A DNA stretch of 64,000 bases from assembly GCA_947173495.1 (NCBI GenBank), contig CAMWFQ010000018.1:1-64000 (forward strand), given 5' to 3'. Both the position numbers and the translations under genes were made by a program. The DNA is from an uncultured Lachnospiraceae bacterium (GTDB taxonomy: Bacteria > Bacillota > Clostridia > Lachnospirales > Lachnospiraceae). Shown here piece by piece: positions 4,327 to 53,701 of the stretch; positions within the stretch are counted from its first letter, which is position 1, and each line of letters starts with the position of its first letter. The notes under the pieces were generated by a model, which did not search any database, had not been told where the DNA came from, and worked only from the letters and a program-made list of their open reading frames with translations.

Positions 4327-4464
4327 TCCAATCTCCATTCCGGAGCGTTTGCGCGGCGGGATGACACAAATCTCAAATCTGCGTCCGCCACCAGACAAAT
4401 CTGTGACGCTCCTGTACCAATTTGGGTGTGAAAAATCAGCACCTCAGCGTGATTTTTCAATCTG
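4327..4464 (-). promoter_or_regulatory. Structured 5' leader, copy A (argS)
   Basis: Minus strand. Hairpin 1 has arms GAAAAATC (4458-4451) and GATTTTTC (4437-4430). Hairpin 2 has arms CAAATTGGT (from 4424) and ACAGATTTG (to 4396), with GGAGCGT (4412-4406) in its loop. GGAGCGT is the exact complement of ACGCTCC (4348-4342), which lies immediately before the ribosome site GGAATGGAGA. CTCC in that segment could instead pair with the GGAG of the ribosome site. Nearly the same string is found before the gene at 53702. Confidence 0.6.
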
Positions 4465-4543
4465 CATCTCTTTCCTGTAAAGCACTCCAGTTTCTATAAC
4501 AATTTCTATAACAGTCCCTTTATATGCTGTTTTTATCCTATCA

Positions 4544-5200
4544 TTAGAATTTCTTTTTTTCAAGTCCGTTTTCCCGCTCTGTCTTTGAAAACACGCACCC
4601 GCAATAGTCCTGCCGGTACAGTTCATATTCTCTGGAGAGCTCCACAGATCGCTTATACCCATCCTTTTTCTTAAAGTCCGAAGGCAGAAAATCCACTTTG
4701 TATTCCTTTGAAAGCGTTTCCCCAATCTCGTTGATCTTTGCCGCGTTTTTAAGCGGACTGATACTCAATGTGGTAGTAAAATAATCCGCACCGGCCTCTT
4801 TTGCCCATTCCGCCGTCTTGCGCAGCCGCATTTCGTAACACACAAAGCACCTTTCCCGGCCCTCCCGGCAATGCTCAAGTCCCCTGATATAATCAAAGAA
4901 CTGTTGCTTTTCATACGGCCCCTCCGCCACTTTTATCGGATAGGCTTCTATCTCTTTTTCTTTTATCTGACGATTGAATTCCCGGATCAGACGTTTCTGC
5001 TCTTCTGCCCTTTTCCTGTATTCTTCTTCCTCTGTAATATTGGGATTATAATAAAAAACGGTAATACGAAAAAAGGGTCTGAGATATTCCAGCACATAGC
5101 TGCTGCAGGGGGCGCAGCAGCTGTGCAAAAATAATTCTTTCCCTTTTTCTTCCTTATCTCCTAAAATTTTTTCCAGTTCCCGTGAATAATTCCGATTCAT
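4544..5200 (-). CDS. queH: Epoxyqueuosine reductase QueH
   Basis: Catalyses the last step of queuosine synthesis, reducing epoxyqueuosine in tRNA, in organisms that lack QueG. The 218-residue protein shows the family's cysteine sets: LHSCCAPCSSYVLEYL near residue 25, RCFVCYEMRLRKTAEWAKEAGADYFTTTL around residue 110, and DYCGCVFSK near the C-terminus, which bind metal and an Fe-S cluster. SPLKNAAKINEIG matches the conserved core of the former DUF208. It starts 15 nt after purA on the same strand, so the two are probably cotranscribed. There is a weak GGATGAGAG ribosome site. Confidence 0.93.
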   Translation of the reverse strand: MNRNYSRELEKILGDKEEKGKELFLHSCCAPCSSYVLEYLRPFFRITVFYYNPNITEEEEYRKRAEEQKRLIREFNRQIKEKEIEAYPIKVAEGPYEKQQFFDYIRGLEHCREGRERCFVCYEMRLRKTAEWAKEAGADYFTTTLSISPLKNAAKINEIGETLSKEYKVDFLPSDFKKKDGYKRSVELSREYELYRQDYCGCVFSKTERENGLEKKKF

Positions 5201-5215
5201 CGTCTCTCATCCATC

Positions 5216-6508
5216 TTATTTTTTCAGCAGGCTCTCTCTGTAAATTATATCTCTCCGGCCCGGTCCGTTCGAAACCATGGTGATCGGATAACCGATCTGC
5301 TCCTCGATAAACTCCACATATTTCCGGCAATTTTCCGGCAGATCCTCATATTTTCTGATCCCCCGGATATTGCACTTCCAACCGGGAAGTTTTTTGAGTA
5401 CCGGCTTTGCCCTGTTCAGCTTCCAGGTCACAGGAAACTCCTTTGTCACTTCCCCGTCGATCTCATATCCTACGCATACCGGAATCTCATCCAGATACCC
5501 CAGAACATCCAGCACCGTAAACGCCACGTCTGTCGTTCCCTGCAATCTGCATCCATATCGGGATGCCACACAGTCAAACCAGCCCATACGTCTGGGACGT
5601 CCGGTGGTCGCGCCGAACTCTCCTCCGTCACCGCCCCTGCGCCGCAGTTCATCCGCCTCATCACCGAAGAGCTCGGACACAAAGGCGCCCGCTCCCACTG
5701 CCGATGAATATGCCTTACATACTGTAATAATCTCTTTAATCTCGTATGGCGGAATTCCCGCGCCAATCGCCCCATAGGCGGCCAGTGTTGAAGAGGATGT
5801 CACCATGGGGTAAATCCCGTGATCAGGATCCTTTAAGGTTCCCAGCTGTCCCTCCAGTAAAATGGTCTTCCCCTCCCTGAGCGCCTGCTCCAGAAAAGCG
5901 GACACATCGCACACATAAGGTTCTATCATCTTTTTATATTCCCGAAGTGTCTCCATAAGCTGCGCCGGATCAATCAGAGGTTTATGATACATATGCTCCA
6001 GCATCACATTCTTCTGTTCACAGACTCTTTCCACCTTTTCCTTAAGTGTCTCCTCATCAAAGAGCTCACTGACCTGAAACCCGATTTTGGCATACTTATC
6101 AGAATAAAAAGGCGCTATCCCGGATTTTGTAGAGCCGAAAGACCTGCCTGCCAGGCGCTCTTCCTCATATTGATCCAGCAAAATATGATAGGGCATTACC
6201 ATCTGAGCCCTGTCAGAAACCAGTATCTTTGGTCTGGGGACCTTTCTGTCCACAAGAGACTGTATTTCCTCAAAAAGCACCGGAATATTCAGCGCCACAC
6301 CATTCCCAATCACGCTGGTAGTATGCCCGTAAAATACCCCTGACGGCAGGGTATGAAGTGCAAATTTCCCATAGTCATTGACAATCGTATGTCCCGCATT
6401 GGCTCCGCCCTGAAAGCGGACAATCACATCCGCCTGCTGCGCCAGCATATCTGTAATCTTCCCTTTTCCTTCGTCGCCCCAGTTTGCTCCCACTACTGCC
6501 TTTACCAT
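5216..6508 (-). CDS. purA: Adenylosuccinate synthetase
   Basis: Converts IMP and aspartate with GTP to adenylosuccinate, the first committed step to AMP. Visible signatures are the N-terminal GANWGDEGKGKITDML, the NAGHT segment GANAGHTIVNDYGKFALH, LGTLKDPDHGIYPMVTSSST and TGRPRRMGWFD. The 430-residue length is normal. The start ATG has AGGAGGAAGAAA in front of it. It leads the purA-queH pair. Upstream lies a 400-bp array of palindromic repeats, so its promoter must sit in or beyond that array, or very close to the gene. Confidence 0.98.
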   Translation of the reverse strand: MVKAVVGANWGDEGKGKITDMLAQQADVIVRFQGGANAGHTIVNDYGKFALHTLPSGVFYGHTTSVIGNGVALNIPVLFEEIQSLVDRKVPRPKILVSDRAQMVMPYHILLDQYEEERLAGRSFGSTKSGIAPFYSDKYAKIGFQVSELFDEETLKEKVERVCEQKNVMLEHMYHKPLIDPAQLMETLREYKKMIEPYVCDVSAFLEQALREGKTILLEGQLGTLKDPDHGIYPMVTSSSTLAAYGAIGAGIPPYEIKEIITVCKAYSSAVGAGAFVSELFGDEADELRRRGGDGGEFGATTGRPRRMGWFDCVASRYGCRLQGTTDVAFTVLDVLGYLDEIPVCVGYEIDGEVTKEFPVTWKLNRAKPVLKKLPGWKCNIRGIRKYEDLPENCRKYVEFIEEQIGYPITMVSNGPGRRDIIYRESLLKK

Positions 6509-6529
6509 TTTCTTCCTCCTGCTATTTCA

Positions 6530-6950
6530 ATTCTGCTGTGCGCATGCCCGCGCACCCCATGTGCCGCTTTAGCGGCATATTCTCTGTGTGCACCTGCGCA
6601 ATTCGAGTAGGGAGGCTTATCTTCCCCTACTCGCCGCGCGCCCATGAGCCGCTTTAGCGGCATACTTCCTCTGCATGGAACTGCGCAATCGAGTAGGGGA
6701 GATTTATCTTCCCCTACTCGCCGCGCGGCCCATGAGCCGCTTTAGCGGCATACTTCCTCTGCATGGAACTGCGCAATCGAGTAGGGGAGATTTATCTTCC
6801 CCTACTCGCCGCGCGGCCCATGAGCCGCTTTAGCGGCATACTTCCTCTGCATGGAACTGCGCAATCGAGTAGGGAGGCTTTTTCTCCCTACTCGCCGCGC
6901 GGCCCGCATGCTGCGTCAGCAGCAAATTTCCTTATGCGGGCCTGCGCATA
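6530..6950 (+). repeat. Tandem array of a bipartite palindromic repeat (88-bp unit)
   Basis: Units begin with TCGAG at 6603, 6689, 6777 and 6865, a period of 86-88 bp; the second and third units look identical. A partial unit precedes them. Each unit has hairpin H1 (GAGTAGGGGA then TCCCCTACTC) followed by CCGCGC and hairpin H2, whose apical stem is GCCGC TTTA GCGGC and whose outer arms are CCATG and CATGG. The last unit has a different H2: arms GGCCCGCAT and ATGCGGGCC around GCTGC GTCA GCAGC. Related copies are at 8822, 46457, 56275 and 63960. Confidence 0.9.
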
Positions 6951-6951
6951 A

Positions 6952-6979
6952 AAAGCAGGTTTATAAAAACCTGCTTTTG
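6952..6979 (-). terminator. Intrinsic terminator downstream of ilvE
   Basis: AAAAGCAGGTTT and AACCTGCTTTT form a strong stem followed on the minus strand by a T run. It lies about 95 nt after the ilvE stop and separates ilvE from the repeat array. Confidence 0.75.
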
Positions 6980-7072
6980 TGTCAGCTTTTTACTTTCTGA
7001 TTATACTCCGGGCATCATCATAAGTAAAATTAATATTTATTATATCTGATATAAGTAATTTTTATATCTATT

Positions 7073-8095
7073 CTATACCTCTACTACCCATCCTTCAGGA
7101 GCCTTGATGGTGCCCATCTGAATGCCAGTCAGGGTATCGTAGAGCTTTTTGGTCACCGGTCCAATCTCGGTCATTCCGCTTGGGAAGCAGATTTCCTTAC
7201 CGTGATCAACCACCTTTCCTACCGGTGAAATTACTGCCGCCGTACCGCACAGGCCGCACTCGGCAAAATCCTTCAGTTCATCCACATAGACTTCTCTTTC
7301 CTCAGCCTCCATTCCCAGATATTCTCTGGCCACCTGGATCAGGGAGCGTCTTGTAATGGAAGGAAGAATACTGTCTGATTTCGGCGTGACCACTTTTCCA
7401 TCCTTTGTGACAAACAGGAAGTTTGCTCCCCCCGTTTCCTCCACTCTGGTTCTCGTAGCGGCGTCCAGATACATATTCTCATCATATCCCTGGTTGTGTG
7501 CATCTACAATCGCATGAAGGCTCATGGCATAGTTAAGACCCGCTTTGATATGTCCGGTTCCTCTTGGCGCTGCCCGGTCAAAATCACTGATCCGAATGGT
7601 CAAAGGCTTAAACCCGCCTTTAAAATAAGGTCCTACCGGGGTGGTAAATATTCTGAACTGATATTCATCGGCCGGCTTCACACCGATCACCGGACTACTG
7701 CCAAACATATAAGGACGTACATACAGGGTAGCGCCGCTGCCATAGGGGGGCACATAGGCCGCATTGGCTTTCACCGTCCTGCGCACTGCCTCTACAAATT
7801 TATCTTTGGGGAATGCCGGCATTTCCAGGCGCTCTGCGCTCTGCTCCATTCTCTCTCCGTTCAGATCCGGCCGGAATGTAACGATACGCCCATCGGCCGT
7901 GGTGTAGGCCTTCATACCCTCAAATATAGTCTGAGCATACTGAAGAACGCCGGCACATTCGCTGATAACCACATTAGCGTCCTCCGTCAGGCTCCCTTCG
8001 TCCCATGCACCATTCTTATAGTTGGATACAAATCTGTAATCTGTCTTAATATAGCCAAACCCCAGATTTTCCCAGTCGATACTTTTTTTCTCCAT
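7073..8095 (-). CDS. ilvE: Branched-chain amino acid aminotransferase
   Basis: PLP-dependent fold-type IV transaminase interconverting leucine, isoleucine and valine with their 2-oxo acids. The 340-residue protein matches the long (eukaryote-like) bacterial form: FEGMKAYTTADGRIVTFRPD, LYVRPYMFGSSPVIGV, then GTGHIKAGLNYAMSL, in which K is the Schiff-base lysine, and VEETGGANFLFVTKDGKVVTP. GLCGTAAVISPVG near residue 280 is the cofactor-phosphate loop region. GGGAGTGAGATT precedes the ATG. folA lies 60 nt upstream on the same strand, so the two may share a transcript. Confidence 0.96.
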   Translation of the reverse strand: MEKKSIDWENLGFGYIKTDYRFVSNYKNGAWDEGSLTEDANVVISECAGVLQYAQTIFEGMKAYTTADGRIVTFRPDLNGERMEQSAERLEMPAFPKDKFVEAVRRTVKANAAYVPPYGSGATLYVRPYMFGSSPVIGVKPADEYQFRIFTTPVGPYFKGGFKPLTIRISDFDRAAPRGTGHIKAGLNYAMSLHAIVDAHNQGYDENMYLDAATRTRVEETGGANFLFVTKDGKVVTPKSDSILPSITRRSLIQVAREYLGMEAEEREVYVDELKDFAECGLCGTAAVISPVGKVVDHGKEICFPSGMTEIGPVTKKLYDTLTGIQMGTIKAPEGWVVEV

Positions 8096-8154
8096 AATCT
8101 CACTCCCTCTTATGTTTTTTTTATTATTATACCTTTTTTCGTAAAAGTCAATAG

Positions 8155-8646
8155 TTATACCACTCTCTGATACTTTAAAAAATGGTAGGTTATATCAAAA
8201 TAGGTCTGCTCGTCGCTGTCCGCCTCGATCCGCCACTCCGGCATCCGGTCGAGATCCGGGAAATAAGCATCCGCCGCATAATTATGATGAATTTTGGTCA
8301 CATGAACCACACTGCAGCAGGGCAGGAGCTGTCTGTATACGCTTTCTCCGCCTACAATATAAACCTCCTCTTCGGAATAGTTCTTCAGTTCTTCGAACAG
8401 CTCCTTCAGGCTGTGAACCACACAGGCGCCCTTCACTTTATAAGAAGGATCCCCGGACAGGATGATATTCGTCCGTCCTGAAAGCGGCAGTCCCTGGGGA
8501 AAGGTATGCAGCGTTTTCCTTCCATATACCACCACTTTTCCTGTCGTCTCCTGCCGGAAAAATTTATGGTCAGCGGGAATTGTCACAAGCAGTTCTCCCT
8601 TATTCCCGATCGCCCACTGTTCATCCGCCGCCACGATCATATTCAT
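8155..8646 (-). CDS. folA: Dihydrofolate reductase
   Basis: NADPH-dependent reduction of dihydrofolate to tetrahydrofolate. The start MNMIVAADEQWAIGNKGEL carries the conserved substrate-loop W and N; TGKVVVYGRKTLHTFP is the NADPH-binding segment and EEVYIVGGESVYRQLLP the conserved GGxxxY region. The 163-residue length is typical. CAGGAGG lies 8 nt before the ATG at 8646; an alternative in-frame ATG is three codons upstream. It precedes ilvE on the same strand. Confidence 0.95.
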   Translation of the reverse strand: MNMIVAADEQWAIGNKGELLVTIPADHKFFRQETTGKVVVYGRKTLHTFPQGLPLSGRTNIILSGDPSYKVKGACVVHSLKELFEELKNYSEEEVYIVGGESVYRQLLPCCSVVHVTKIHHNYAADAYFPDLDRMPEWRIEADSDEQTYFDITYHFLKYQRVV

Positions 8647-8821
8647 TTCACGCACCTCCTGTTTTCGTTTGATCTATTATATAACACACCTTTTTTCAAT
8701 TCAAGTACCATGGCTTTCGTAAACCGGCAGGATTTTTCCCGCGTCAACACTCTTTTCAGAATTGTGTTCCGCTTAAAAATGGATTATAATTACAGCTGTC
8801 AGGATTAAAAAACAAGAAATT

Positions 8822-8918
8822 TAATCGAGTAGGGAAGATTTATCTTCCCCTACTCGCCGCGCGGGGCGCACGTCAGCTTTTGCTGACATTTTTCCTCTGT
8901 GCGCCCCTGCGCATTATA
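8822..8918 (+). repeat. Bipartite palindromic repeat, single copy
   Basis: H1 is GAGTAGGGAAGAT paired with ATCTTCCCCTACTC. H2 has outer arms GGGGCGCAC and GTGCGCCCC and an apical stem GTCAGC TTTT GCTGAC. All H2 stem bases differ from the array at 6530-6950 while pairing is kept. It ends 31 nt before the MoxR-type ATPase gene. The preceding 8690-8820 stretch holds nothing I recognise. Confidence 0.85.
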
Positions 8919-8948
8919 AAAGATTTCCGAATTGAAAAGGAGAACCCC

Positions 8949-9893
8949 ATGGACCTGTCCATACTGAAAAGTCTGAAAGAAAACATATCCCGGGTGGTTA
9001 TCGGCAATGAATCAACCATCTCTCTTATTCTGACTGCCATTCTTGCCAGAGGGCACGTACTGCTTGAGGATGTTCCCGGCACCGGAAAAACAATTATGAC
9101 CAGAGCTCTCGCATCATCCATCCAGGCACAGTTCGGCCGTATTCAGTTCACCCCCGATCTGCTGCCCTCCGATATCACCGGACTGAATTATTTCGATGCC
9201 AAAAGAGGGGAATTTGTATTTGCCAAAGGTCCCGCCTTCTGCAACATTCTGCTGGCGGACGAGATCAACCGGGCAACCCCCAAGACCCAGAGCAGTCTTC
9301 TGGAATGTATGGCGGAGGGACAGATCACCGTTGACGGCGTTACCCGTCCCCTGGAAGAACCCTTTCTTGTAATAGCCACTCAGAATCCTCTGGAAACGCT
9401 GGGAACATTTCCCCTTCCGGAAGCGCAGCTGGACCGCTTTCTTATGAAAATATCCATGGCTTCCTTAGATGAAGAACAGGAGCTTGCCCTGATCGGACGT
9501 TTTATCATGGACGAACCGCTCTCCGGGCTGACGCCGGTCTGCGAAAAACAGACCATTCTTGCCCTGCAGCAGGCATGCCGGGAAATTTTTGTTCATCCGG
9601 AGCTGCAAAGATACATGGTTGCTCTTATTCATGCCACCAGAAAGCATCCCGGAGCTGCAAATGGGGTGAGCCCCAGAGGAACTCTGGCTCTCCTTCGCGC
9701 ATCTCAGGCGCATGCCATGGTCTGCGGACGCTCCTATGTCGTGCCGGAAGATATCAAGACGATTGCTGATCCTGTGCTTTCTCACCGGATCACGCTGGCT
9801 GCCGGCACCGATCATTTCCGGGCCGCTTCCCGGATCATCGGAGAGATTCTTTCCTCCACCACAGTTCCCACTGAAAATTGGGCGGAAAGGTAA
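8949..9893 (+). CDS. MoxR-family AAA+ ATPase
   Basis: A 314-residue AAA+ chaperone-like ATPase. GHVLLEDVPGTGKTIMTRAL is Walker A, NILLADEINRATPKTQSSLLE is Walker B with the MoxR NRA signature, IATQNPLETLGTFPLPEAQLDRF carries sensor 1 and the arginine-finger region, and SPRGTLALLRASQAHA is sensor 2. MoxR ATPases act with VWA, DUF58 and membrane partners in assembly or maturation of surface or metal-containing complexes. It leads a three-gene run, with the DUF58 gene starting 6 nt later. AAAGGAGA lies before the ATG at 8949; the longer reading frame from 8880 runs into the repeat and lacks a ribosome site. Confidence 0.93.
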   Translation: MDLSILKSLKENISRVVIGNESTISLILTAILARGHVLLEDVPGTGKTIMTRALASSIQAQFGRIQFTPDLLPSDITGLNYFDAKRGEFVFAKGPAFCNILLADEINRATPKTQSSLLECMAEGQITVDGVTRPLEEPFLVIATQNPLETLGTFPLPEAQLDRFLMKISMASLDEEQELALIGRFIMDEPLSGLTPVCEKQTILALQQACREIFVHPELQRYMVALIHATRKHPGAANGVSPRGTLALLRASQAHAMVCGRSYVVPEDIKTIADPVLSHRITLAAGTDHFRAASRIIGEILSSTTVPTENWAER

Positions 9894-9898
9894 CGATC

Positions 9899-11020
9899 AT
9901 GTTTCTCTTACTGTTATCAGGCGTGCTTCTCGCCTGGCTTTTCAGCCGCTGGCTCTATCGGACATTCTGGCACAGAAACCTCTCTGTTCAGATTGAATTT
10001 CTGGATCGCTTTCTCTATGAGGGCGAAACCTCTGTCCTGAAGGAAGTCGTCATCAATGATAAATTTCTTCCTCTCCCCGCGCTGGAGGTGCGTTTTTCCT
10101 CCAACCGGAGTCTGGAATTTTTAAATGACGCCAGTGTCAACACAAGCTCCACGGATCTGAGCTATAAACGGGATGTCTTTTCCTTTCTTTTTCATCAGAA
10201 AATCCGGCGAAGCCTCCCCTTTACCGCGCACAAAAGAGGAATATATCAGATCTATGATGTCAGCCTGACTGCCTATGATTTCTTTTTTCACCCCGGTTAT
10301 TATGCCGACGTCCCTCAGAAGACGGTACTGTATGTCTATCCAAAGCAGGTGGATACATACCGGATCGTCTTGCTGTGCCAGGCAATCTCCGGCATGGTCC
10401 TTTCCCGCCGCCGTCTGTATCCGGATCCCTTTGAATTCTCAGGCATCCGGACCTACCGAAGGCAGGATCCCATGAATCATATCAACTGGAAGGCCTCTGC
10501 ACGCTCCGGAGAGCTCATGGTGAATCAATTCGATTCCACTACCAGCATTTTGCTGACTCTGATCTTTGATCTGGAAGATCCTCTGATTTTAAAATATGAA
10601 GATCTGGTAGAAGAGACCATTCGGATCACCTCTTCCCTGGCAGCCCGGCTGGTAAAAATGAATATGCCTTTTTACGTCAAAAGCAATGTGACAGATGCGT
10701 CTGCTTCTTCCGCCTTTTCCATGTATATCGCCGCCGGCGCCGGCAATATGAGAGAACTCAATCAAAAGCTGGCATGTATTGACAGCCGCGTCTGCTCCCT
10801 CCCTACCAGGGAATTACTTTTGGCGGAACGCTCCCTGAAAAGATCCGATCACATTTATCTGTTCATCTCCAAGAACCGGGACGCTGAGCTGACACAGCTC
10901 CTGCTCTCCCTGATCGGAACCGGTAACCAGATTCTCTGGGTTCTTCCTGTCAGAGCCCAGGACCATTCCCCGGAGCTGATCCATGATCCACGGATCACAG
11001 TGATCCCCTGGGAGCTCTGA
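9899..11020 (+). CDS. DUF58 domain protein, membrane-anchored
   Basis: A 373-residue protein with an N-terminal hydrophobic segment (MFLLLLSGVLLAWLFSRWLY) and the DUF58 core at about residues 170-230: PDPFEFSGIRTYRRQDPMNHINWKASARSGELMVNQFD, where the R-x-Y-x-x-x-D-x-x-x-x-I-x-W pattern defines the family. A VWA-like fold follows. DUF58 proteins are partners of MoxR ATPases. The start at 9899 follows GGAAAGG; the upstream in-frame start at 9878 would overlap the MoxR gene. It is the middle gene of the cluster. Confidence 0.9.
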   Translation: MFLLLLSGVLLAWLFSRWLYRTFWHRNLSVQIEFLDRFLYEGETSVLKEVVINDKFLPLPALEVRFSSNRSLEFLNDASVNTSSTDLSYKRDVFSFLFHQKIRRSLPFTAHKRGIYQIYDVSLTAYDFFFHPGYYADVPQKTVLYVYPKQVDTYRIVLLCQAISGMVLSRRRLYPDPFEFSGIRTYRRQDPMNHINWKASARSGELMVNQFDSTTSILLTLIFDLEDPLILKYEDLVEETIRITSSLAARLVKMNMPFYVKSNVTDASASSAFSMYIAAGAGNMRELNQKLACIDSRVCSLPTRELLLAERSLKRSDHIYLFISKNRDAELTQLLLSLIGTGNQILWVLPVRAQDHSPELIHDPRITVIPWEL

Positions 11021-11038
11021 CTGCAGAAAGGATTTCTC

Positions 11039-12352: not shown

Positions 12353-12374
12353 GGATTTCTGCGAAAGAATCGCC

Positions 12375-13973: not shown

Positions 13974-13976
13974 TCC

Positions 13977-43881: not shown

Positions 43882-43934
43882 ATTTATTTTCCTCCTGCTA
43901 TAAATAAACTATACCTTAAAGTTATCAAAAAGTC

Positions 43935-44105: not shown

Positions 44106-44163
44106 CAGCGTGCAACGTGCCTCTCCTTTCCTTGATTTTAGCGGGTTTCAGAACAGCGATATA

Positions 44164-46412: not shown

Positions 46413-46446
46413 GAAATCATATCCTCCTGTATATTTACTCAATTGG

Positions 46447-46618
46447 GCCCGCGCAATCGAGCAGGGAAGGCTTTCCACTACTCGCGCGCGGCCCGCATGC
46501 TGCGTTAGCAATAACTTCATCTGTGCGCCCCTGCGCAATCGAGTAGGGAAGACTTTCCACTACTCGCGCGCGGCCCGCATGCTGCGTTAGCAGCAAATTT
46601 CCTTATGCGGGCCTGCGC
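46447..46618 (+). repeat. Two bipartite palindromic repeats, one a mosaic
   Basis: H1 begins at 46457 and 46539. The second unit has a complete H2 (GGCCCGCAT with ATGCGGGCC). The first has the same left arm and GCTGC GTTAGC but a right side ending GTGCGCCCC, which belongs to the other subtype seen at 8822, so its H2 arms no longer match. They lie between the thiD leader terminator and thiD and would be transcribed when the riboswitch allows. Confidence 0.8.
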
Positions 46619-46620
46619 AT

Positions 46621-46654
46621 AAAAAAAAGAGCCTCTCATGATCAGAAGCTCTTT
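46621..46654 (-). terminator. Terminator of the thiDE leader
   Basis: AAAGAGC and GCTCTTT with a pairing inner region (TCT/AGA) followed on the minus strand by eight T. Placed about 25 nt after the TPP aptamer, as expected for a transcription attenuator. Confidence 0.75.
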
Positions 46655-46680
46655 CAAAACGCAAAACGGCGTAAGAAATT

Positions 46681-46757: not shown

Positions 46758-47163
46758 AACACAGATTGTTTTTATTCAGTTTAAGCTGCTCTTCCAGCAG
46801 TTTTTGCTTTTCATCTTCCGTCCCGTCAAACGCCTCCAGGAACTTTTTCCACTCCTTCTGGGTATAGGCCCGGGCGCCGGTCTGAATCTTCGGTTCCGTT
46901 TCTCCCGTCCGAACCTTTTTCAGCAGCTCCTGTTTCCTGTCCCGGAGAATCCCCACCAGTTCTTCTGTATCCGGGCGTCCGGATGCCGCCAGAAGTGCGC
47001 TGAAGGAATCAGACTTTGATGTCTGCTCCGCCTTTTTTGTTTTCTGCCATGCCGGAATCTGACCGGCACAGCCTGACTTAGAACCTGTAATAATCATATC
47101 TTTCCCTGTTCCTTTTATTCCTTTTCCCGGATATCCTTCCGGCCCTCTGATGAAGATTACCAT
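46744..47163 (-). CDS. Unknown protein coupled to the DUF6033-like gene
   Basis: 139 residues. Its ATG overlaps the stop of the upstream gene (ATGGTAA). A Gly/Lys-rich start (GYPGKGIKGTGKDMIITGSK), a middle with SDSFSALLAASGRPDTEEL, and KKFLEAFDGTEDEKQKLLEE with a Lys/Asn-rich end. Typical of small companions of DUF6033 proteins but I can give no function. The TPP aptamer starts within its last codons. Confidence 0.7.
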   Translation of the reverse strand: MVIFIRGPEGYPGKGIKGTGKDMIITGSKSGCAGQIPAWQKTKKAEQTSKSDSFSALLAASGRPDTEELVGILRDRKQELLKKVRTGETEPKIQTGARAYTQKEWKKFLEAFDGTEDEKQKLLEEQLKLNKNNLCLRGN

Positions 47164-47894
47164 TTAAAATCAATGTGCTGTCCGATGCCTCTCTCCGGCT
47201 CGCTCCAGAGCGTGTCGCTCCGTGAGCTGTACACAACGTCGTTTATTTTCTGAATCAATTCTTCTATGGAGGAAGCTGTCACCGTAACCAGATCCTCCCG
47301 GGTCTCAGTCTTTTCAGCGGATTTTTCCGCCCGCTTTTCCTCTGCGGTCTTTTCAGCTTCTTTTTTGGCGTCCGCTTTCTTCTCTTCCGCCTTTCTGGAC
47401 GCGTTTCTTTTGATCCTCTCTCTCTGTGCCGCCAGAGATTTATCCACCACTGCAAAGAAAGATGCATTTCCGCCATCATTTACCTGCATTCCAAAACCCT
47501 TCACCACCGAGGCGTTGCTGCCCAGGCTTGCTTTCATCTGCGGAAGCTTGTGAGTGGCATTGCTGATGATGGCCTCATACTGCTTGCGGAAATTCTCGTC
47601 AGTTGCCATCCGCTCGATCTTTTCCTCGTCAATCAAAACCACCATTTTATTGGGATTTGCATAGCTTGCCGCCTGTGCCCTGGCAGCCTGCTTCCTATCG
47701 CTGCTGACCAGAATAAAGTCCATGTTGGAATACTTTTTCTTTAATTCCTCGTAATACTTCTGCCCCTCTTCACTGAGCTCAGGTTTCCCTATGGTTTTGC
47801 CATAGTTCGCCGGCTTTTTCTTATTTACCGAAGTCTCGTATGCCGCCGCATTTGCCTGGGCTGCATTCTCTGTCTGTGTTATCAGTGCGCTCAT
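47157..47894 (-). CDS. DUF6033-like protein
   Basis: 245 residues from MSALITQTENAAQANAAAYE. YGKTIGKPELSEEGQKYYEE and LKKKYSNMDFILVSSDRKQA form the conserved block I associate with DUF6033. MVVLIDEEKIERMATDENFR, then KGFGMQVNDGGNASFFAVVD follow; a charged low-complexity helix (EKTAEEKRAEKSAEKTETRE) precedes a short C-terminal domain. No signal peptide, so cytoplasmic. GAAATGGGG lies before the ATG at 47894; the longer frame at 47966 would run through the structured leader. Function unknown. Confidence 0.72.
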   Translation of the reverse strand: MSALITQTENAAQANAAAYETSVNKKKPANYGKTIGKPELSEEGQKYYEELKKKYSNMDFILVSSDRKQAARAQAASYANPNKMVVLIDEEKIERMATDENFRKQYEAIISNATHKLPQMKASLGSNASVVKGFGMQVNDGGNASFFAVVDKSLAAQRERIKRNASRKAEEKKADAKKEAEKTAEEKRAEKSAEKTETREDLVTVTASSIEELIQKINDVVYSSRSDTLWSEPERGIGQHIDFKW

Positions 47895-48021
47895 ATTTTC
47901 CCCATTTCTGCGCTGCTTTGTTGCGCAAAGCCATGATATGGCTAAATCCATAAAATGGATTAACAAGTTTGTGGATGCAGCGCAGACACAAACTTGCAGA
48001 GGAAAGATTTGAAAAATCTTT
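47895..48021 (-). promoter_or_regulatory. Structured 5' leader, copy C (DUF6033-like gene)
   Basis: Minus strand. Hairpin 1: AAAGATTT and AAATCTTT (48021-48002). Hairpin 2: CAAGTTTGTG (47996-47987) and CACAAACTTG (47973-47964), ten perfect pairs. Its loop TCTGCGCTGC (47986-47977) is the exact complement of GCAGCGCAGA (47916-47907), which directly precedes AAATGGGG, the ribosome site. TGCGC at about 47926 offers a competing local hairpin with GCGCA. Two more small hairpins (AATCCAT/ATGGATT, AGCCAT/ATGGCT) lie between. Confidence 0.65.
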
Positions 48022-48121
48022 CACTCTTTTCCTCCTTGATTGTTTGCCAGAAATCCATTTCTCCTTTAATATATCGGCAGAAAAGGAGGTTTGTATTATA
48101 CCTCAAAGCACTCTCCGCGCG

Positions 48122-48451
48122 TCAGAAATTCCCGCTGCTCTCCACATTCAATACAAAATAAACGATGCCGCCCTTCAGCATCTGCACCGGAAGAGAAGAC
48201 ATGCCGGCTCCTCCGGACTGGAGAGAGGGTTCCATCCGTCCTCCTGCATGAAGCTTCAAAATCTGCAGCGCTTCCTCAAGCCTTCCCTCCTCCAGGCCGA
48301 TCAGAATGGTCACACTGCGCTTTTTAAGGAATCCGCCCGAGGAATTCAGGAGTGTTACATAAAATCCATGTTCATTCAAATCCATAACCACATCAGGATA
48401 ATCGTCTCCCTGAAGAACTGCCATAACGAGTTTGTCACATTTTACATTCAT
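48122..48451 (-). CDS. Cyclic-di-AMP receptor (DarA/PstA-like, PF06153)
   Basis: 109 residues from MNVKCDKLVMAVLQGDDYPD, the usual length. GFYVTLLNSSGGFLKKRSVTILIGLEE is the family signature (T-x-x-x-S/T-x-G-G-F-L-K-x-x-x-x-T), the loop that holds c-di-AMP in the PII-like trimer. Known members sense this second messenger in Firmicutes; the output partner is not known. ATG at 48451 is chosen because GAGGG lies 7 nt before; the longer frame reads into the MATE gene region. Preceded by a member of the leader family. Confidence 0.9.
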   Translation of the reverse strand: MNVKCDKLVMAVLQGDDYPDVVMDLNEHGFYVTLLNSSGGFLKKRSVTILIGLEEGRLEEALQILKLHAGGRMEPSLQSGGAGMSSLPVQMLKGGIVYFVLNVESSGNF

Positions 48452-48520
48452 CTTTTCCCTCATTTCTGCGCTTTTTTGCGCATGACAAGTTTGTGCGGGC
48501 AGCGCACAGGCACAAATCTT
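48452..48520 (-). promoter_or_regulatory. Structured 5' leader, copy D (c-di-AMP receptor gene)
   Basis: Minus strand. AGATTTGTGC (48519-48510) pairs with GCACAAACTT (48496-48487), seven perfect central pairs. Loop TGCGCT (48506-48501) is complementary to AGCGCA (48472-48467) just before GAAATGAGGG, the ribosome site. TGCGC (about 48482-48478) can compete for GCGCA as a local hairpin. Hairpin 1 is not seen in this copy. Confidence 0.55.
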
Positions 48521-48575
48521 TCCGCCTCCGGCTGTCATTTTCAATATGTTATTATACCTGTCCGCCAAACGAACA

Positions 48576-49991
48576 TCAACTGATTTTGCGGACACCCTGG
48601 TTTTCCGTACCTGAAGGGCACATCCCGCTCCGGGCCGCCTCCTCGTCCGCCAGGCGCCTGATCCTCTTCCACTTTTCAGTAAGGAAGTAAGCCAGCATGC
48701 ATACCATACCAAAGGTGAAGCTGATGGGGAAACAGGCCATAATATATCTCCCATCTATATAGCGTCCGATCAGATAGGCGCTGGGGATCCGTACCACCCA
48801 CAGCATCAGAATATTGATGATGGTAGGATACTTTACCTCCCCCATCCCGTTGATGAAGCTGATAATACCGTTAAACACTGCAAAAGTCCAGGTAAAAGGC
48901 AGTACCACCCGAATATAAATCGCCGCCTGATCCAGCACTGCCTGATCTCTGGTGAAGATTCCCAGAATCGGACGGCACAGCGCAGTCACCAGCAGCCCGG
49001 CTGTCAGTGTGAATAAACCGGAAAATACCGGGATCGTAATACCTCCCTTTTTCAGCCGTATGTAATTTTTACTTCCCAGATTTTGTCCGGAAAAGGTGGT
49101 AGCCGCCGAGGAAAAAGAGTTGATGGCGATGTTGGCGATCCCCGTCACCTTGGTAGCCACCGAGCAGGCCGCCATAAAGGTTGAGCCCTGGGCATTGATC
49201 AGAGACTGCATCAGCACATGGCCTATGGAATAGATGGAGTTATTCAGTCCCAGAGGAAGTCCTACCCGGATAATAGAGCCCAGCATATCCCTGTCCGCTC
49301 TCCCGGGCAGCACCTTATATTCCAGCTCCGGATATTTCTTTTTGATATAAAAGATGCTGAACGCCCAGGAACTGTACATGGCCAGAATGGTTGCCAGCGC
49401 AGCGCCTGCCACATCCATCCCCAGAGCTGCAACAAACAGAATGTCCAGAACAATATTGATCACACAGGATACCAGCAGAAAAAGCAGGGAGGCCCTGCTG
49501 TCACCCACGCCGCGCAGAATTCCGGCATTCATATTATAGCCCATATTCCCCAGGGTACCGAAGAAGATGATCCTCAGATAAGATACCGCCAGGTCCCAGG
49601 CATCTTCCGGGGCCTGCATGAATTTCAGGATCAGGGGTCCCAGAAAAAATCCGGCCAGCGTCAGCGGAATGGCACACATATACAAAAAGGAGGATGAGGT
49701 GGCAACCAGCCGCTTTAAGCTTTCCGAATCCCCGCTTCCTGTATACTGGGATACCAGGATGGACACCCCCATACCGATCCCCAGAAAAATACATAAAAAA
49801 ACCTCTACCGGCTGGGCACTGGTGCCCACCGCCGCCAGAGAAACAGAATTACAGAAATTACCAATGACCAGTGTATCTACCGTACTGTAAAGCTGCTGCA
49901 GAATATTCCCGATACAAATGGGAAGCGCAAACAGCACCACCAGCTTCATGATCGGTCCCCTCGTCATGTCAATTTTCTTTTGAGAATGCAT
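48576..49991 (-). CDS. MATE-family multidrug efflux transporter
   Basis: 471 residues with about 12 hydrophobic segments in two six-helix halves. MTRGPIMKLVVLFALPICIG and LYSTVDTLVIGNFCNSVSLAAVGTS at the start are standard MatE. GDSRASLLFLLVSCVINIVLDILFV ends the first half, and VATKVTGIANIAINSFSSAATTFSGQNLGS opens the second. Exports cationic drugs with Na+ or H+. C-terminal tail is cytoplasmic and Arg-rich. GAAGGGC lies 7 nt before the ATG. Monocistronic-looking. Confidence 0.93.
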   Translation of the reverse strand: MHSQKKIDMTRGPIMKLVVLFALPICIGNILQQLYSTVDTLVIGNFCNSVSLAAVGTSAQPVEVFLCIFLGIGMGVSILVSQYTGSGDSESLKRLVATSSSFLYMCAIPLTLAGFFLGPLILKFMQAPEDAWDLAVSYLRIIFFGTLGNMGYNMNAGILRGVGDSRASLLFLLVSCVINIVLDILFVAALGMDVAGAALATILAMYSSWAFSIFYIKKKYPELEYKVLPGRADRDMLGSIIRVGLPLGLNNSIYSIGHVLMQSLINAQGSTFMAACSVATKVTGIANIAINSFSSAATTFSGQNLGSKNYIRLKKGGITIPVFSGLFTLTAGLLVTALCRPILGIFTRDQAVLDQAAIYIRVVLPFTWTFAVFNGIISFINGMGEVKYPTIINILMLWVVRIPSAYLIGRYIDGRYIMACFPISFTFGMVCMLAYFLTEKWKRIRRLADEEAARSGMCPSGTENQGVRKIS

Positions 49992-50100
49992 GGAACTGCC
50001 CTTCTTTCTATTTACTTACTCCTCAATCCGCTTATTCCTCAATATACTCCCTTTGATCCTGAAAAGCTACCCTTTTTCACTTTACTGAAAGCATTACGTA

Positions 50101-50129
50101 ACTGTGAATCCGAAGGCTGAATCGTCACA
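50101..50129. terminator. Hairpin after the DUF3298-like lipoprotein gene
   Basis: CTGTGA and TCACAG arms with a pairing inner part (ATCCGAAGG region) overlap the lipoprotein stop. Weak T tract. The 49992-50100 gap to the MATE gene has no gene. Confidence 0.45.
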
Positions 50130-51039
50130 GCACTACTCCAAGGCTCCCCTCCGCATGTCCAAAACCAAAGGAGCCCTCCTTAAAATCGATACAAATCCGA
50201 TCTCCCTGGAAATACCAGGTCACTGTATTCTGTGAAAGTGCATCTGAAATCTCCTGCCTCACTGTCGTTTTATCAAAATCCAGTTCCGGATAGTTTTCAT
50301 AGAGCTGCTTTTCTATGGTTTCCTTCACGGCCTCATCCACTGTCATAAATTCCGAGAGATTCAAAGCTTCGCCTGTCTGCGGATTGAAATTATAAGTTTC
50401 AAAATAGTTGTCCGGATGAGGTCCTCCTGCCTCTACGCTTCTTAAGATCACTATGCTGACTGCCTGTCCGTCACATCTGGTGATATTTACCTGACTGCTC
50501 TGGCTTCGAATCGGCATATCCTCTCCCCCATTCTCTTCTGCAGTCGCCAGAAATTCACCGCTCCAGGCCTGATATTCCTCATTGACAACGTCGATCGCTG
50601 ATACCAGAGCGCCATATTCTTCTCCGCTCACGGTAAATACCGGATATTCCGCATAGGCAATTTCTTTGCCGGATGCATCCTCCTTTACAGAACGAAGGAT
50701 CTCCCATGAAATCACCGGTGCCGCCGAATCAACTGTTGTACTGTTCTGAACCGCGCCTTCCTCTGTTTCAGTTTCTTTGTCGCCTGTACCGGCCGCATCT
50801 CCCTCTTCCGTCCGGGGGCCTGCTTCCTTTGTTCCGTCTGTTCCCATTTCAGTCCCCAGCGCCTGTACCGGATCCTCTTCGGGTATTTCTTCCAGCTGAA
50901 GTCCGGAAGCAGCCGGCGCCTCCTGCTCCTGCGCCGCTGAATCTCCGCCGCAGCCTCCCATACACAATACAAAAGTAAGCATCAGTGCAATCATTCCTGT
51001 TTTATCTATTTTTATTGTTTTTCTTTCTGACATTTCCAT
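50125..51039 (-). CDS. DUF3298-like lipoprotein
   Basis: 304 residues. A lipobox (LTFVLCMGGC) follows a basic start, so it is exported and lipid-anchored. A Glu/Ala/Thr-rich linker (residues 40-105) precedes a domain with SWEILRSVKEDASGKEIAYAEYPVF, QVNITRCDGQAVSIVI, ILRSVEAGGPHPDNYFETYNFN and LNLSEFMTVDEAVKETIEKQ, the DUF4163/DUF3298 arrangement (as in RsiV, which binds lysozyme). The G-G-x-H-x-x-x-Y-x-x-x-x-N/F block is diagnostic. No sigma factor gene adjoins, so it is not an obvious anti-sigma. GGAGGATTGA precedes the ATG. Confidence 0.82.
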   Translation of the reverse strand: MEMSERKTIKIDKTGMIALMLTFVLCMGGCGGDSAAQEQEAPAASGLQLEEIPEEDPVQALGTEMGTDGTKEAGPRTEEGDAAGTGDKETETEEGAVQNSTTVDSAAPVISWEILRSVKEDASGKEIAYAEYPVFTVSGEEYGALVSAIDVVNEEYQAWSGEFLATAEENGGEDMPIRSQSSQVNITRCDGQAVSIVILRSVEAGGPHPDNYFETYNFNPQTGEALNLSEFMTVDEAVKETIEKQLYENYPELDFDKTTVRQEISDALSQNTVTWYFQGDRICIDFKEGSFGFGHAEGSLGVVL

Positions 51040-51168
51040 TCAATCCTCCTTTTTTTATCTCCGTACTGATTATAGCGTAATATATGGAAATTGAAAACAG
51101 AATTTTCGGCTATTGACAGGCTCCTGCCTGAAAGCTTAGAATGAATCCATGAAAGGAGGAATGTACGT

Positions 51169-51786
51169 ATGGACAAAGCAACTATGTATAAGCTGACCTA
51201 TGGTCTGTTTGTTCTTACTTCCGGTTCTGAAGGCAAAGACAGCGGCTGTATCATCAATACTGCCGGCCAGGTGACTTCTGATCCCAACCGGATCAGCATT
51301 GCCGTTAACAAAGCAAACTTTACCCATGATCTTGTCAGGGAAAGCGGCAGGTTCAATATTTCTGTTCTGAGTCAGGAGGCTGATTTTTCACTTTTTAAAC
51401 ACTTCGGCTTTCAGTCGGGCAGAGATGTGGATAAATTTGCCGGTTTCCCGGACTGTGCACGCAGCGCGAACGGACTTTACTATGTAACCAGAGGAACCAA
51501 CGGCTTCATCAGCGCCAGAACCGAACAGACGATTGATCTTGATACGCATACCCTGTTTATTGCCTCAGTGAAGGATATGAAGGTATTATCCGATGTTCCT
51601 TCCGCAACCTATGCTTATTATCAGTCTTCCATTAAACCCCGGCCGGAAAAACCGAAAGCTTCCGGTAAAACGGTATGGCGCTGCAGTGTATGCGGTTATA
51701 TTTATGAGGGGGAGGAACTTCCGGCGGATTTCATCTGTCCCCTGTGTAAGCATCCCGCTTCGGATTTTGAGAAAGTAACAACATAG
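51169..51786 (+). CDS. Flavin reductase-rubredoxin fusion (high-molecular-weight rubredoxin)
   Basis: 205 residues. N-terminal flavin reductase-like split barrel (residues 1-150): YKLTYGLFVLTSGSEGKDSG, CIINTAGQVTSDPNRISIAV, then GRFNISVLSQEADFSLFKHFGF. A C-terminal rubredoxin (residues 160-205) has WRCSVCGYIYEGEELPADFI then CPLCKHPASDFEK, giving the two C-x2-C iron ligands. Such fusions pass electrons from NAD(P)H oxidoreductases to oxygen-detoxifying flavodiiron proteins in anaerobes. AAAGGAGGAATGTACGT precedes the ATG. Stands alone. Confidence 0.93.
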   Translation: MDKATMYKLTYGLFVLTSGSEGKDSGCIINTAGQVTSDPNRISIAVNKANFTHDLVRESGRFNISVLSQEADFSLFKHFGFQSGRDVDKFAGFPDCARSANGLYYVTRGTNGFISARTEQTIDLDTHTLFIASVKDMKVLSDVPSATYAYYQSSIKPRPEKPKASGKTVWRCSVCGYIYEGEELPADFICPLCKHPASDFEKVTT

Positions 51787-51792
51787 ACTCTT

Positions 51793-51826
51793 CCATCGAG
51801 CAGGGGCGGATTTTTGTCCCCTGCCC
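51793..51826 (+). terminator. Terminator-like hairpin after the rubredoxin fusion gene; resembles H1 of the repeat family
   Basis: ATCGAGCAGGGGC and GTCCCCTGC arms with a GGATTTTT loop, six nt after the stop. The start ATCGAG and loop are like H1 of the interspersed repeats, but no H2 follows. Confidence 0.55.
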
Positions 51827-51832
51827 GCAGGA

Positions 51833-52912
51833 TCAGAACTTAAGGGACTGCTTTTTATCCTGTGGTAATGCATACAATAAAATGTTCACCTGAAATTCTT
51901 CCTCCGTGTGCTGAATTTCCATATTTCCATTATATTTTTCCACCACTTTCCTTACGCTGATAAGACCTATACCGTGGCTGGCAGCGTCCTCCTTTGTGGT
52001 CAGAAACCTTCCTTCCTTTTCGTTCAGATTCCCATTATATGTATTTTTAATACGGATGTTGATCATTCCTCTGTCGTACTGTATCAGTATTGCAAGTTCT
52101 TTTTCCCGGCTTTTCTTCATAGCCTCGTAAGAATTCCGCAACAGATTACTTAAAATCATATTGATATCAAAGTCATCGACTTTGATCCCCTGTACTGCCC
52201 TCGTATCAATCGTGATGGCTGCCCCGATCTTTTTGATCTCAGGGATCGCGTAATTCATGACACAGTCGATGCATTCATTCCCTGTCTCAATATATTTTCT
52301 GTCCGTTCCGGCATACTGATTCATTTTTTTCAGATATTCCAAAGCTTTTTCATATTCGCCGCGGTCAATATAATCGCTGATCATATTCATATGATGCTTC
52401 ATGTCGTGCCGCATTGTCCTGTAAGTATCATTGGTATTCTGCATAACATTCAGCTGCCTCTGATACATCTGCATCTGCCGTCTGTATATTTCCTTTTCTT
52501 CTGTTTTTTTGTGCTGAACAAGATATTGCTCAAAGAGAAGATACAGAAATAAAAAGAAGGAAATGCTCCGGATCTCCGGCCGGATCCCTTTTCCGCTGAT
52601 AAACAAAATACCTGCAAAGTTTTCGGCGGCTGCTTCCACCCCTATGTTAAGAATTGCTGCCAACATCTTTTTCTGCTTCTGCCCCCGGTAACCGGCCGCA
52701 ATAATAGAAAAGAGGCATGCTCTGTCCAGTATCAGAGCAACCCCTTTGTCATTCCACATAAAATGTATCAGTATGTTTATCAAAAAATAAGCCGTATAAA
52801 GATACGGCGTACAACTTTTCTCCCCCTTTTTTCCAAAAAACACTCCGGTAAAGCTGTAAATAACATAAAGTCTGAAGATGTTTAAAAGCAAATACAAAAA
52901 TTCCTCCCCCAT
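51833..52912 (-). CDS. GHKL-family sensor histidine kinase (AgrC/LytS-like)
   Basis: 359 residues from MGEEFLYLLLNIF; AGAAGG precedes the ATG at 52912. Four to six N-terminal hydrophobic segments (to about residue 155), a coiled linker (YRRQMQMYQRQLNVMQNTND), the phospho-acceptor H in YRTMRHDMKHHMNMISDYID, and a C-terminal ATPase domain with INMILSNLLRNSYEAM (N box) and SHGIGLISVRKVVEKYNGNM (G box). Typical of peptide-sensing AgrC-type kinases. No response regulator or AgrD/AgrB gene adjoins, so it is an orphan here. Confidence 0.88.
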   Translation of the reverse strand: MGEEFLYLLLNIFRLYVIYSFTGVFFGKKGEKSCTPYLYTAYFLINILIHFMWNDKGVALILDRACLFSIIAAGYRGQKQKKMLAAILNIGVEAAAENFAGILFISGKGIRPEIRSISFFLFLYLLFEQYLVQHKKTEEKEIYRRQMQMYQRQLNVMQNTNDTYRTMRHDMKHHMNMISDYIDRGEYEKALEYLKKMNQYAGTDRKYIETGNECIDCVMNYAIPEIKKIGAAITIDTRAVQGIKVDDFDINMILSNLLRNSYEAMKKSREKELAILIQYDRGMINIRIKNTYNGNLNEKEGRFLTTKEDAASHGIGLISVRKVVEKYNGNMEIQHTEEEFQVNILLYALPQDKKQSLKF

Positions 52913-53123
52913 TTTCAACCTTCTCTTTCCTGTTTCCTTTTCACAACATACAATGAATAGCCATTCTTCTGCTTTATCTTACAGCAATCCTCATAATCTC
53001 ACCTTTTATGCACAATATAACTATTTTACACGGTATATAATCCTGCTATTTTTTATAATATAACCATTCAAATCGGCATATTACCTCCCGGATTTATATA
53101 AACTGTTAAAAGAGGTGATTGCA

Positions 53124-53453
53124 ATGAATGAGAATGAAAAATTCGTACGTGACAGAATCACTGAGTTGAGAATGCAGGCTGAAGTATCTGAATATCAGCT
53201 CAGTATGGAACTGGGGCACAGTAAATCTTATATACAATCCATCAGCTCAGGCAGATCTCTGCCTTCTTTATCTGCGTTTTTTGAAATATGTAATTATTTC
53301 AATATCAGTCCTCTGGAATTTTTTGACGAAACCATGAAAAATCCGGATCAGCTTCACCGAATCACCGACAAATTGAAACTCCTTTCTGAAAATGATCTGG
53401 ACTTTTTTGAAGAGATACTGGATAAGTATCACAGCAATTTGCAGAACAGATAA
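53124..53453 (+). CDS. Xre-family HTH regulator
   Basis: 109 residues from MNENEKFVRDRITELRMQAE; AGAGGTGATTGC precedes the ATG. HTH_3: VSEYQLSMELGHSKSYIQSI then SSGRSLPSLSAFFEICNYFN; a short tail (LKLLSENDLDFFEEILDKYH) is helical. A monocistronic gene with its own terminator. Targets unknown; divergent neighbour is the orphan kinase, so it may regulate it. The 52913-53123 stretch is an AT-rich divergent promoter region. Confidence 0.88.
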   Translation: MNENEKFVRDRITELRMQAEVSEYQLSMELGHSKSYIQSISSGRSLPSLSAFFEICNYFNISPLEFFDETMKNPDQLHRITDKLKLLSENDLDFFEEILDKYHSNLQNR

Positions 53454-53468
53454 CTTTTTCATATCAGG

Positions 53469-53500
53469 GCCCCGGACGCTTAACCCGTCCGGGGCTTCTT
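53469..53500 (+). terminator. Intrinsic terminator of the Xre gene
   Basis: GCCCCGGACG and CGTCCGGGGC pair perfectly over a 7-nt loop and are followed by TTCTTTTTC. Confidence 0.9.
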
Positions 53501-53587
53501 TTTCTTGCTTTTCCTGCTGTTCTTCCTTATAATGGTAGTGGCAACTAAATTTCAATACTGGAAACTGTATTTAAAAGCTGAAGGATA

Positions 53588-53701
53588 TGTGAAAAATCAC
53601 ACTGATGTGCCGATTTTTCACACGCAAATTTGTGTCGGAGCGTCACAAGTTTGTTTTGATGATATGCTCTGTCGCATAAACGCTCCGGAATGGAGATTTT
53701 T
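53588..53701 (+). promoter_or_regulatory. Structured 5' leader, copy B (BMP-fold gene)
   Basis: Hairpin 1: GAAAAATC (53591-53598) and GATTTTTC (53612-53619) with an inner CACA/TGTG pair. Hairpin 2: CAAATTTGTG (53625-53634) and CACAAGTTTG (53644-53653), loop TC then GGAGCGT (53637-53643). GGAGCGT is the exact complement of ACGCTCC (53680-53686), followed at once by GGAATGGAGATT and the ATG at 53702. CTCC and the ribosome-site GGAG can also pair locally across GGAAT. Confidence 0.65.

Follow-up and report, generated by a model that had tools for sequence, protein, structure and literature searches.

We analysed a window of 64,000 nucleotides (nt) from an uncultured Lachnospiraceae bacterium (assembly GCA_947173495.1, contig CAMWFQ010000018.1, positions 1 to 64,000), in which four pseudoknot-capable leaders, copies A to D, had been noticed in an initial annotation. 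The leaders belong to a real, widespread and covarying family of pseudoknot leaders, which lie between two Shine-Dalgarno (SD) sequences in most testable copies and are patchily present at orthologous genes. The family comprises two types, R1 and R2. Computation shows the position of the copies, their number, their absence at most of the orthologous genes compared, and covariation, which in R2 extends to the hairpins P1, P2 and P3 and the pseudoknot (PK) and in R1 to PK. We read the element, with a probability of about 0.6, as a dispersed, proliferating cassette of the 5' untranslated region (5'-UTR) whose pseudoknot presents a new ribosome site.

In this reading, each copy (about 70-160 nt) lies in sense orientation between the original SD of a gene and its start codon and supplies an SD of its own, some 6 nt ahead of the ATG. 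The mRNA is predicted to fold into an optional P1 directly following the old SD, next P2 and then P3 hairpins where present, with the loop of P2 pairing with a segment touching the new SD to form the PK. P1 would close off the old SD, and P2 and PK would hold the leader so that the new SD, of the GAAAUGGAG type, is exposed. The host gene would thereby stay translated, so that the cassette could spread regardless of what a gene does. The PK strand of R2 may pair locally (P4) instead, and the leader may then be switchable.

Copy number and distribution

The family is far larger than the four members first supposed, since the genome of the window holds at least 85 strong copies (69 R1 matches above 50 bits and 16 R2 matches above 55 bits in the stretches fetched from it). 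With a loose pattern, 19 exact matches turned up in this genome and none with its reversed control, and the copies are therefore far beyond chance; blastn with copy B as query found 35 places at E ≤ 1. The check proposed in the initial annotation, a search of Lachnospiraceae genomes and Rfam with covariance models, returned many copies and, for the window and ten further loci, no Rfam match. The R1 model was built from 19 copies of the C/D type and the R2 model from 12 of the A/B type; in the genome of the window R1 gave at least 102 matches at E ≤ 0.01 among 104 candidates scored, and R2 gave 22.

Among 37 genomes of the genus, R1 ranged from 0 to 102 matches per genome, these counts being lower bounds as at most 104 candidates were scored; 31 genomes had a match at E ≤ 0.01, and R2 was present in 22. 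R1 copy number followed genome size (rho 0.67). In a draw of 250 genomes of the family (250 genera by tally, the genome of the window included), R1 was found in 26 and R2 in 33 at E ≤ 1e-6. A sample of 391 genomes from the class yielded R2 in only four, the genome of the window among them and all of its family; stricter filters and 9-15 candidates scored per genome make the counts of both draws lower bounds. In a pattern scan of named genomes, almost all records among the matches listed were named Lachnospiraceae or its genera.

The R1 copies of the genome are near-identical (median pairwise identity 94%, range 86-99%, 42 copies). For R2, four copies of the same genome share 84-89% identity and copies across genera 78-92%; this equal likeness within and between genera would fit transfer or strong constraint alike. 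Tandem copies exist, among them three pairs (L016, L124, L129) with one variant SD common to both members, as judged by eye, so local duplication also happens. Some draft contigs (G232:C14, G232:C25, G134:C86, G007:C45 and G019:C213) start inside an R2 copy or a few bases from one, as expected if the copies are alike enough to break assemblies. Besides R1 and R2, a third leader type (L165:624-722; L174, G002, before leuD) has P1 and P2 of the same style and a tail GAGAAAGGAGCATGGTTAT, with no obvious pseudoknot. At L166 and L096 the P2 loop carries GCCGC and the target GCGGC or GCGCGGC stands before ATGGAGG, perhaps a further variant.

Position between two ribosome sites

From 237 alignment rows (236 distinct, four without a usable hairpin), 232 matches were parsed. 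Behind 212 of them lay a frame that either reached 60 codons or ran off the stretch. An SD-spaced ATG of an open frame (at least 60 amino acids or running off) stood behind 189 of the 232 elements, compared with 52 of 1930 places taken at random from these loci, so that the copies are found in sense before starts and not mostly inside genes or in antisense. On the other side of the element, an SD-like motif just upstream of its first TTG or GTG was present in 117 of 163 testable copies and in 75 of 652 control windows; the test left out 69 of the 232 elements, 63 without a recognised P1 codon and 6 too near the locus end. The typical reading is GGAGG-N6-[TTGAAAATT ... GAAATGGAG]-N6-ATG. With an SD upstream and an SD-spaced ATG downstream, the element therefore appears inserted between the old SD and the ATG, bringing its own SD.

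The same arrangement could belong to a leader-peptide device, an upstream open reading frame (uORF) translated from the old SD at the TTG or GTG of P1 and controlling the downstream gene. P1 indeed starts with one of these codons at start-codon distance from the upstream SD in most copies read, and some of the frames end on the main ATG. Over 56 sequences, however, the three frames relative to the main start were used 25, 17 and 14 times, and the stops fell anywhere from far upstream of the main start to deep inside the gene. The element is therefore not taken for a leader peptide, a reading to which we give very little credence.

Structure and covariation

The order of parts in R2 is P1, P2 with the pseudoknot loop, P3, PK target, SD and start. 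R1 has the same layout at an identity to R2 of about 50%; the single family first described thus stands as to its common layout, but divides into two types, R1 (copies C and D) and R2 (copies A and B). We aligned with MAFFT 57 R2 copies drawn from 68 rows, leaving out 11 (weak rows, other leader types, tandem fragments, one duplicate and one at a contig end). Over P1, P2, P3 and PK together, 91.6% of the cells pair, 32 of the 41 pairs are changed on both sides, and the covariation score is 0.327 compared with 0.116 ± 0.006 after shuffling (0/500 shuffles as high). When the partners were slid by 1-3 columns, pairing fell to 30-47%. A subset of 41 copies gave the same outcome (93.5% of cells paired, 34 of 41 pairs doubly changed). 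PK of R2 taken alone pairs in 91.6% of the cells vs 85.8 ± 0.6 in shuffles, with 6 of 8 pairs doubly changed (0/500).

For R1, 225 of 243 loop-target cells pair in 27 distinct rows, compared with 208.9 ± 2.5 when partners are swapped (0/2000), and the loop-target energy of 85 anchored rows is -13.8 vs -12.4 ± 0.15 swapped (0/5000). The swap counts rest on 44 rows of R2, 24 of them distinct, and on 42 of R1, of which 27 are distinct and all have 13-nt loops; in 16 of the 232 elements a tail was not recognised, and many hairpins were passed over as divergent. A further pairing test on 194 of the 232 elements chose the hairpin partly by complementarity to its own target, which biases it toward the result, and we do not rely on it; the R1 swap, the R1 anchored-energy and the 57-copy R2 PK tests are free of such a choice. 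Covariation is thus borne out in the hairpins of R2 and in the loop-target helix of both types, where, as the initial annotation proposed from four copies, sequence changes and complementarity is kept.

P4, a local hairpin sharing the 5' part of the PK target of R2, exceeds its own shuffles (score 0/500; doubly changed pairs 6/500) and is a lead only. The controls on the full set of 57 copies weaken P4 and strengthen PK, leaving the ranking of the readings unchanged.

Empty sites at orthologous genes

Both models were searched at E ≤ 0.01 over 75 loci of related species, representing 12 genes. Only 4 of the 75 carry an element beside the gene: purC in G001 (62.5 bits), leuD in G002 (32.5), trpB in G003 (23.1) and a partial match, an R2 tail, at argS in G005 (25.0). 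Not counted were a match about 190 nt upstream of the argR start (L221) and one on the opposite strand, about 1.3 kb beyond the start of lexA (L171); one of the 75 loci, L207, could not be anchored to its gene start. For the Bmp-fold gene behind copy B, seven relatives were searched, and each of the five orthologues read shows a plain SD without the element. The other eleven genes were leuC, leuD, trpB, proB, aspS, argR, argS, coaE, purF, purC and lexA, with one to eight relatives each. The leuD leader of G001 has a structured look and matches neither model.

At leuC, a GGAGG precedes the ATG by 8-9 nt in all seven relatives, reading ACAGGAGG in three of them. Where these three read ACAGGAGG, the leuC of the analysed genome has GCAGGAGG plus the element, in the order GCAGGAGGAGATAAG-element-ATG, with the old SD preserved in front of the element.

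Genes behind the copies

The copies stand before diverse starts, as the initial annotation had it, and both Pfam and gene naming by eye bear this out. Twenty proteins behind copies of the genome were scanned with Pfam, one of which had no family. They include NUDIX, alcohol dehydrogenase, GH109-type oxidoreductase, SAICAR synthetase, M20 peptidase and ABC permease proteins, the aconitase-family LeuC and LeuD (adjacent genes with one copy each), a PALP enzyme (TrpB), rhodanese, enoyl-CoA hydratase, MarR, a class II tRNA synthetase (AspS), CoaE, GNAT, DUF7402, a PurF-type amidotransferase, Fpg and chorismate mutase/prephenate dehydratase. By eye, argR, proB, lexA and others are added, and in other genera the genes are equally mixed, with rplM-, metK-, clpP- and secG-like frames. 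We found no common pathway among the downstream genes, and they do not indicate a metabolite riboswitch. Two different TrpB-like genes of the genome have one copy each (L139, PALP by Pfam; L019, by eye).

The main rival explanation is a very large translational regulon, in which the leaders would be aptamers for one trans-acting factor (a small molecule, an RNA-binding protein or a small RNA) that frees or closes the SD, the leader having been recruited repeatedly because it is useful. The covariation of P1, P2, P3 and PK in R2 fits this explanation, as do the sense copies before starts, the letters conserved by eye around P3, and the competing P4 on the PK strand, which exceeds shuffles though slid versions score as high. 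It is at odds with the lack of a pathway common to genes that include the housekeeping genes argS, aspS, leuC, leuD, purF, purC, coaE, mutM, lexA and proB and, elsewhere, the frames named by eye above, with a leader at 4 of 75 orthologous loci, and with a copy number of 0 to 102 within one genus. On this balance we regard a regulon as unlikely, though a serious competitor.

Possible mobilisation and points against the proposed cassette

A third explanation places the function in the DNA, as a palindromic or miniature inverted-repeat transposable element (MITE)-like repeat whose hairpins matter in transposition and whose RNA fold is a by-product; the position at start codons would then come from target preference and selection against other insertions. 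Dispersed near-identical copies, tandem copies and the P1 palindromes at the left end speak for it. A DNA hairpin, however, needs no partners for its loop, and compensatory changes keep the PK partners in both R1 and R2; terminal inverted repeats or target duplications above control, and a Y1 transposase in the genome of the window, were also looked for and not found, as detailed below. We hold this explanation to be improbable.

Several results weigh against the proliferating 5'-UTR cassette itself or leave it incomplete. As to mobilisation, a Y1 transposase of the repetitive extragenic palindromic (REP)-associated tyrosine transposase (RAYT) kind was rejected, PF01797 having no match at E ≤ 1e-5 in the genome of the window (97% complete), and R1 copy number did not track the Y1 count over 37 genomes (rho 0.16, p 0.35). 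Carriage by a reverse transcriptase or group II intron was likewise rejected (R1 copy number vs RVT_1, rho 0.10). In 56 R1 copies of the genome, the left 18 nt compared with the reversed right 16 nt gave a longest match of 3.36 vs 3.2 shuffled, and target duplications of 3-6 nt stayed within the range of swapped flanks, a test with unfixed ends that longer or displaced duplications could escape. Insertion is not seen directly because the collection holds one genome per species, and the count of 4 in 75 would miss any leader that has diverged beyond the reach of the models, such as that of leuD in G001. As to structure, the R2 PK pair count exceeds swaps only modestly (167/192 in 24 distinct anchored rows vs 162.9 ± 1.8 swapped; 48/2000 reach it), and the shuffles preserve column make-up, not relatedness. 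P4 of R2 scores higher when slid by two columns (0.196 vs 0.153), and a local P4 in R1 was rejected, the cognate energy equalling the swapped one (2691/5000). An SD-sequestering hairpin CUCC/GGAG, which would form an OFF state, pairs in 91.5-92.1% of the R2 cells, yet 475/500 shuffles in the 41-copy subset and 417/500 in the 57-copy set match it, and it shows no covariation in either alignment. The four R2 copies of the genome resemble one another no more than copies of different genera do, and the letters conserved by eye in P3 and the linkers of R2 have the look of selected RNA, which fits a regulated RNA equally well.

RVT_1 has two matches in the genome of the window and was not found at E ≤ 1e-10 in G019, G028 and G031, assemblies with 70, 36 and 28 R1 matches that may be incomplete. 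Phage carriage was considered and rejected: the R1 pattern matches one IMG/VR contig, where the gene behind the match looks by eye like a cation-transport P-type ATPase, and the R2 pattern matches none.

Relation to known elements

The initial annotation knew no named riboswitch of this layout, and Rfam 15 agrees for the window and ten further loci, no family reaching its gathering threshold at the elements. The window gave two tRNAs only and nothing at the copies, copies C and D gave nothing credible at permissive settings, and ten loci with R1, R2 and variant copies gave at E ≤ 0.5 only an unrelated cyclic di-GMP (c-di-GMP)-I riboswitch. This riboswitch (L405:1126-1227, 65.9 bits) belongs to another genus, where an R2 copy lies close by. 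Searches of the literature, limited to open-licence papers and so weak evidence, brought up no account of an element of this kind.

Among the closest known systems, REP sequences, bacterial interspersed mosaic elements (BIMEs) and other short palindromic dispersed repeats are served by RAYT Y1 transposases. Like REP/BIME, the leaders are short and structured, reach tens to more than 100 nearly identical copies in a genome, form tandem arrays and occur patchily from species to species, but they sit in sense between the SD and the start codon, carry an SD and a covarying pseudoknot, and no Y1_Tnp was found in the genome of the window. MITEs and other non-autonomous insertion elements are likewise small, non-coding, dispersed and present or absent at orthologous sites; in contrast to them, R1 and R2 have no inverted ends or target duplication above control and a fixed place relative to start codons. 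In the translational pseudoknot riboswitches preQ1, SAM-V and SAM/SAH, a hairpin loop also pairs downstream beside the SD, and an alternative pairing is possible in R2 too; R1 and R2 differ by having no Rfam match, unrelated genes behind them and at least 102 model matches in one genome. SAM-II is likewise a translational pseudoknot riboswitch. The MRSC-65-2 motif (mobile/repeat sequence candidate) is described as structured and covarying, present dozens of times in a genome, and as pointing to a selfish element rather than to a motif of some other kind; it is reported from diverse phyla as one long stem that carries a UYCCGG repeat (PMC11109978). The leaders resemble it in covariation and copy number, and differ in having P1, P2, P3 and a pseudoknot and in that the four R2 matches of the 391-genome class draw all fall in their own family.

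The element shares traits with dispersed repeats and with pseudoknot leaders, but it lacks those defining features of REP/RAYT elements, MITEs and uORF attenuators that were tested, and no Rfam match was found for it. Tentatively, and with less confidence than in the cassette as such, we suggest that it may be a new kind of mobile element, a structured RNA cassette that inserts into SD-start gaps, puts its own pseudoknot-controlled SD in place of the old one and rewires translation, having spread, perhaps under RNA guidance, to scores of genes in a genome and to tens of genera of one family. If so, a family of gut bacteria would carry a dispersed element that takes over ribosome-binding sites instead of interrupting genes, many housekeeping genes would be translated through one shared RNA fold, and the question arises of what could target SD-start gaps. 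The 232 parsed copies with the element-free orthologues offer a natural experiment on how a pseudoknot beside the SD sets translation. Portable translation-control parts for these bacteria may come of it, as well as a better annotation of leaders without an Rfam label.

The four copies of the window

Re-reading of the sequence confirmed copies A to D at the positions first assigned, in sense and directly before the starts of argS (4326, minus strand), the Bmp-fold gene (53702, plus), the DUF6033 gene (47894, minus) and the cyclic-di-AMP receptor (CdAMP_rec) gene (48451, minus), and all the loop/target pairs first listed are present. The shared design of a hairpin and a loop-target pairing holds as one layout, but it is less uniform than described: A, B and C open with the additional hairpin P1, which D lacks, and between P2 and the target copy A adds P3 and copy C linker hairpins.

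Copy A (R2; match of 120.7 bits at 4321-4445 and an alignment row) spans 4324-4463 on the minus strand, including the argS start codon. Its P1 (TTGAAAAATC..GATTTTTCA) lies at 4429-4460, P2 at 4396-4424 with imperfect arms and the loop GGAGCGT at 4412-4406, P3 at 4360-4389 and the PK target ACGCTCC at 4342-4348, each read from the sequence and backed by covariation of the helix; the SD GGAG (4336-4333) and the argS ATG (4326) follow. The purine-rich AGGAAA upstream (4471-4476, minus) is a candidate old SD that was not counted as an SD in the strict upstream-window test. argS occupies 2560-4326 on the minus strand (PF00750, PF05746, PF03485). An R2 copy of another genus (L397, G194) stands before an argS-like frame, by eye the same gene; occupation of this site in two genera may reflect chance, inheritance or a preferred site. 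The loop of copy A also contains ACAGGA, but a CsrA-type site was rejected, copies C and D having no GGA there.

Copy B (R2, 103.1 bits) lies at 53589-53701 on the plus strand, with P1 at 53589-53623, P2 at 53625-53653 (loop GGAGCGT at 53637-53643), the target ACGCTCC at 53680-53686 and the SD GGAG at 53692-53695. GAAGGA upstream (53580-53585, plus) is the candidate old SD of the Bmp-fold gene (PF02608; 53702-55618, plus), whose five orthologues read have the plain SD described above.

Copy C (R1, 52.6 bits) covers 47895-48024 on the minus strand, with P1 at 48022-48002, P2 at 47996-47964 (loop TCTGCGCTGC at 47986-47977), linker hairpins at about 47961-47930, the target GCAGCGCAGA at 47916-47907 and the SD GGGG at 47903-47900. 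Upstream, AGGAGG (48031-48036, minus), at the place where SD motifs are in excess over 163 copies, is read as the old SD of the DUF6033 gene (PF19498; 47157-47894, minus). Copy D (R1 without P1, 65.4 bits) lies at 48452-48520 on the minus strand, with P2 at 48520-48486 (loop TGCGCT at 48506-48501), the target AGCGCA at 48472-48467 and the SD GAGGG at 48461-48457; GGAGG at 48525-48529 (minus) is a candidate old SD, and the receptor gene behind the copy (PF06153) occupies 48122-48451 on the minus strand. In copy D, P2 competes with a 6-bp local hairpin, and the single-sequence fold z is -0.69, compared with -3.3 to -4.9 for A to C.

Two other repeats lie in the window. An intergenic repeat at 46537-46641, with long G+C-rich arms and a T-run and with matches in G001, G004 and G007, looks like a terminator and unrelated to the leaders. 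Another dispersed repeat, 63 nt long (59438-59500), stands upstream of a frame at 59561 and recurs at nine places in the relative G002 and at one in G001, with 84-98% identity.

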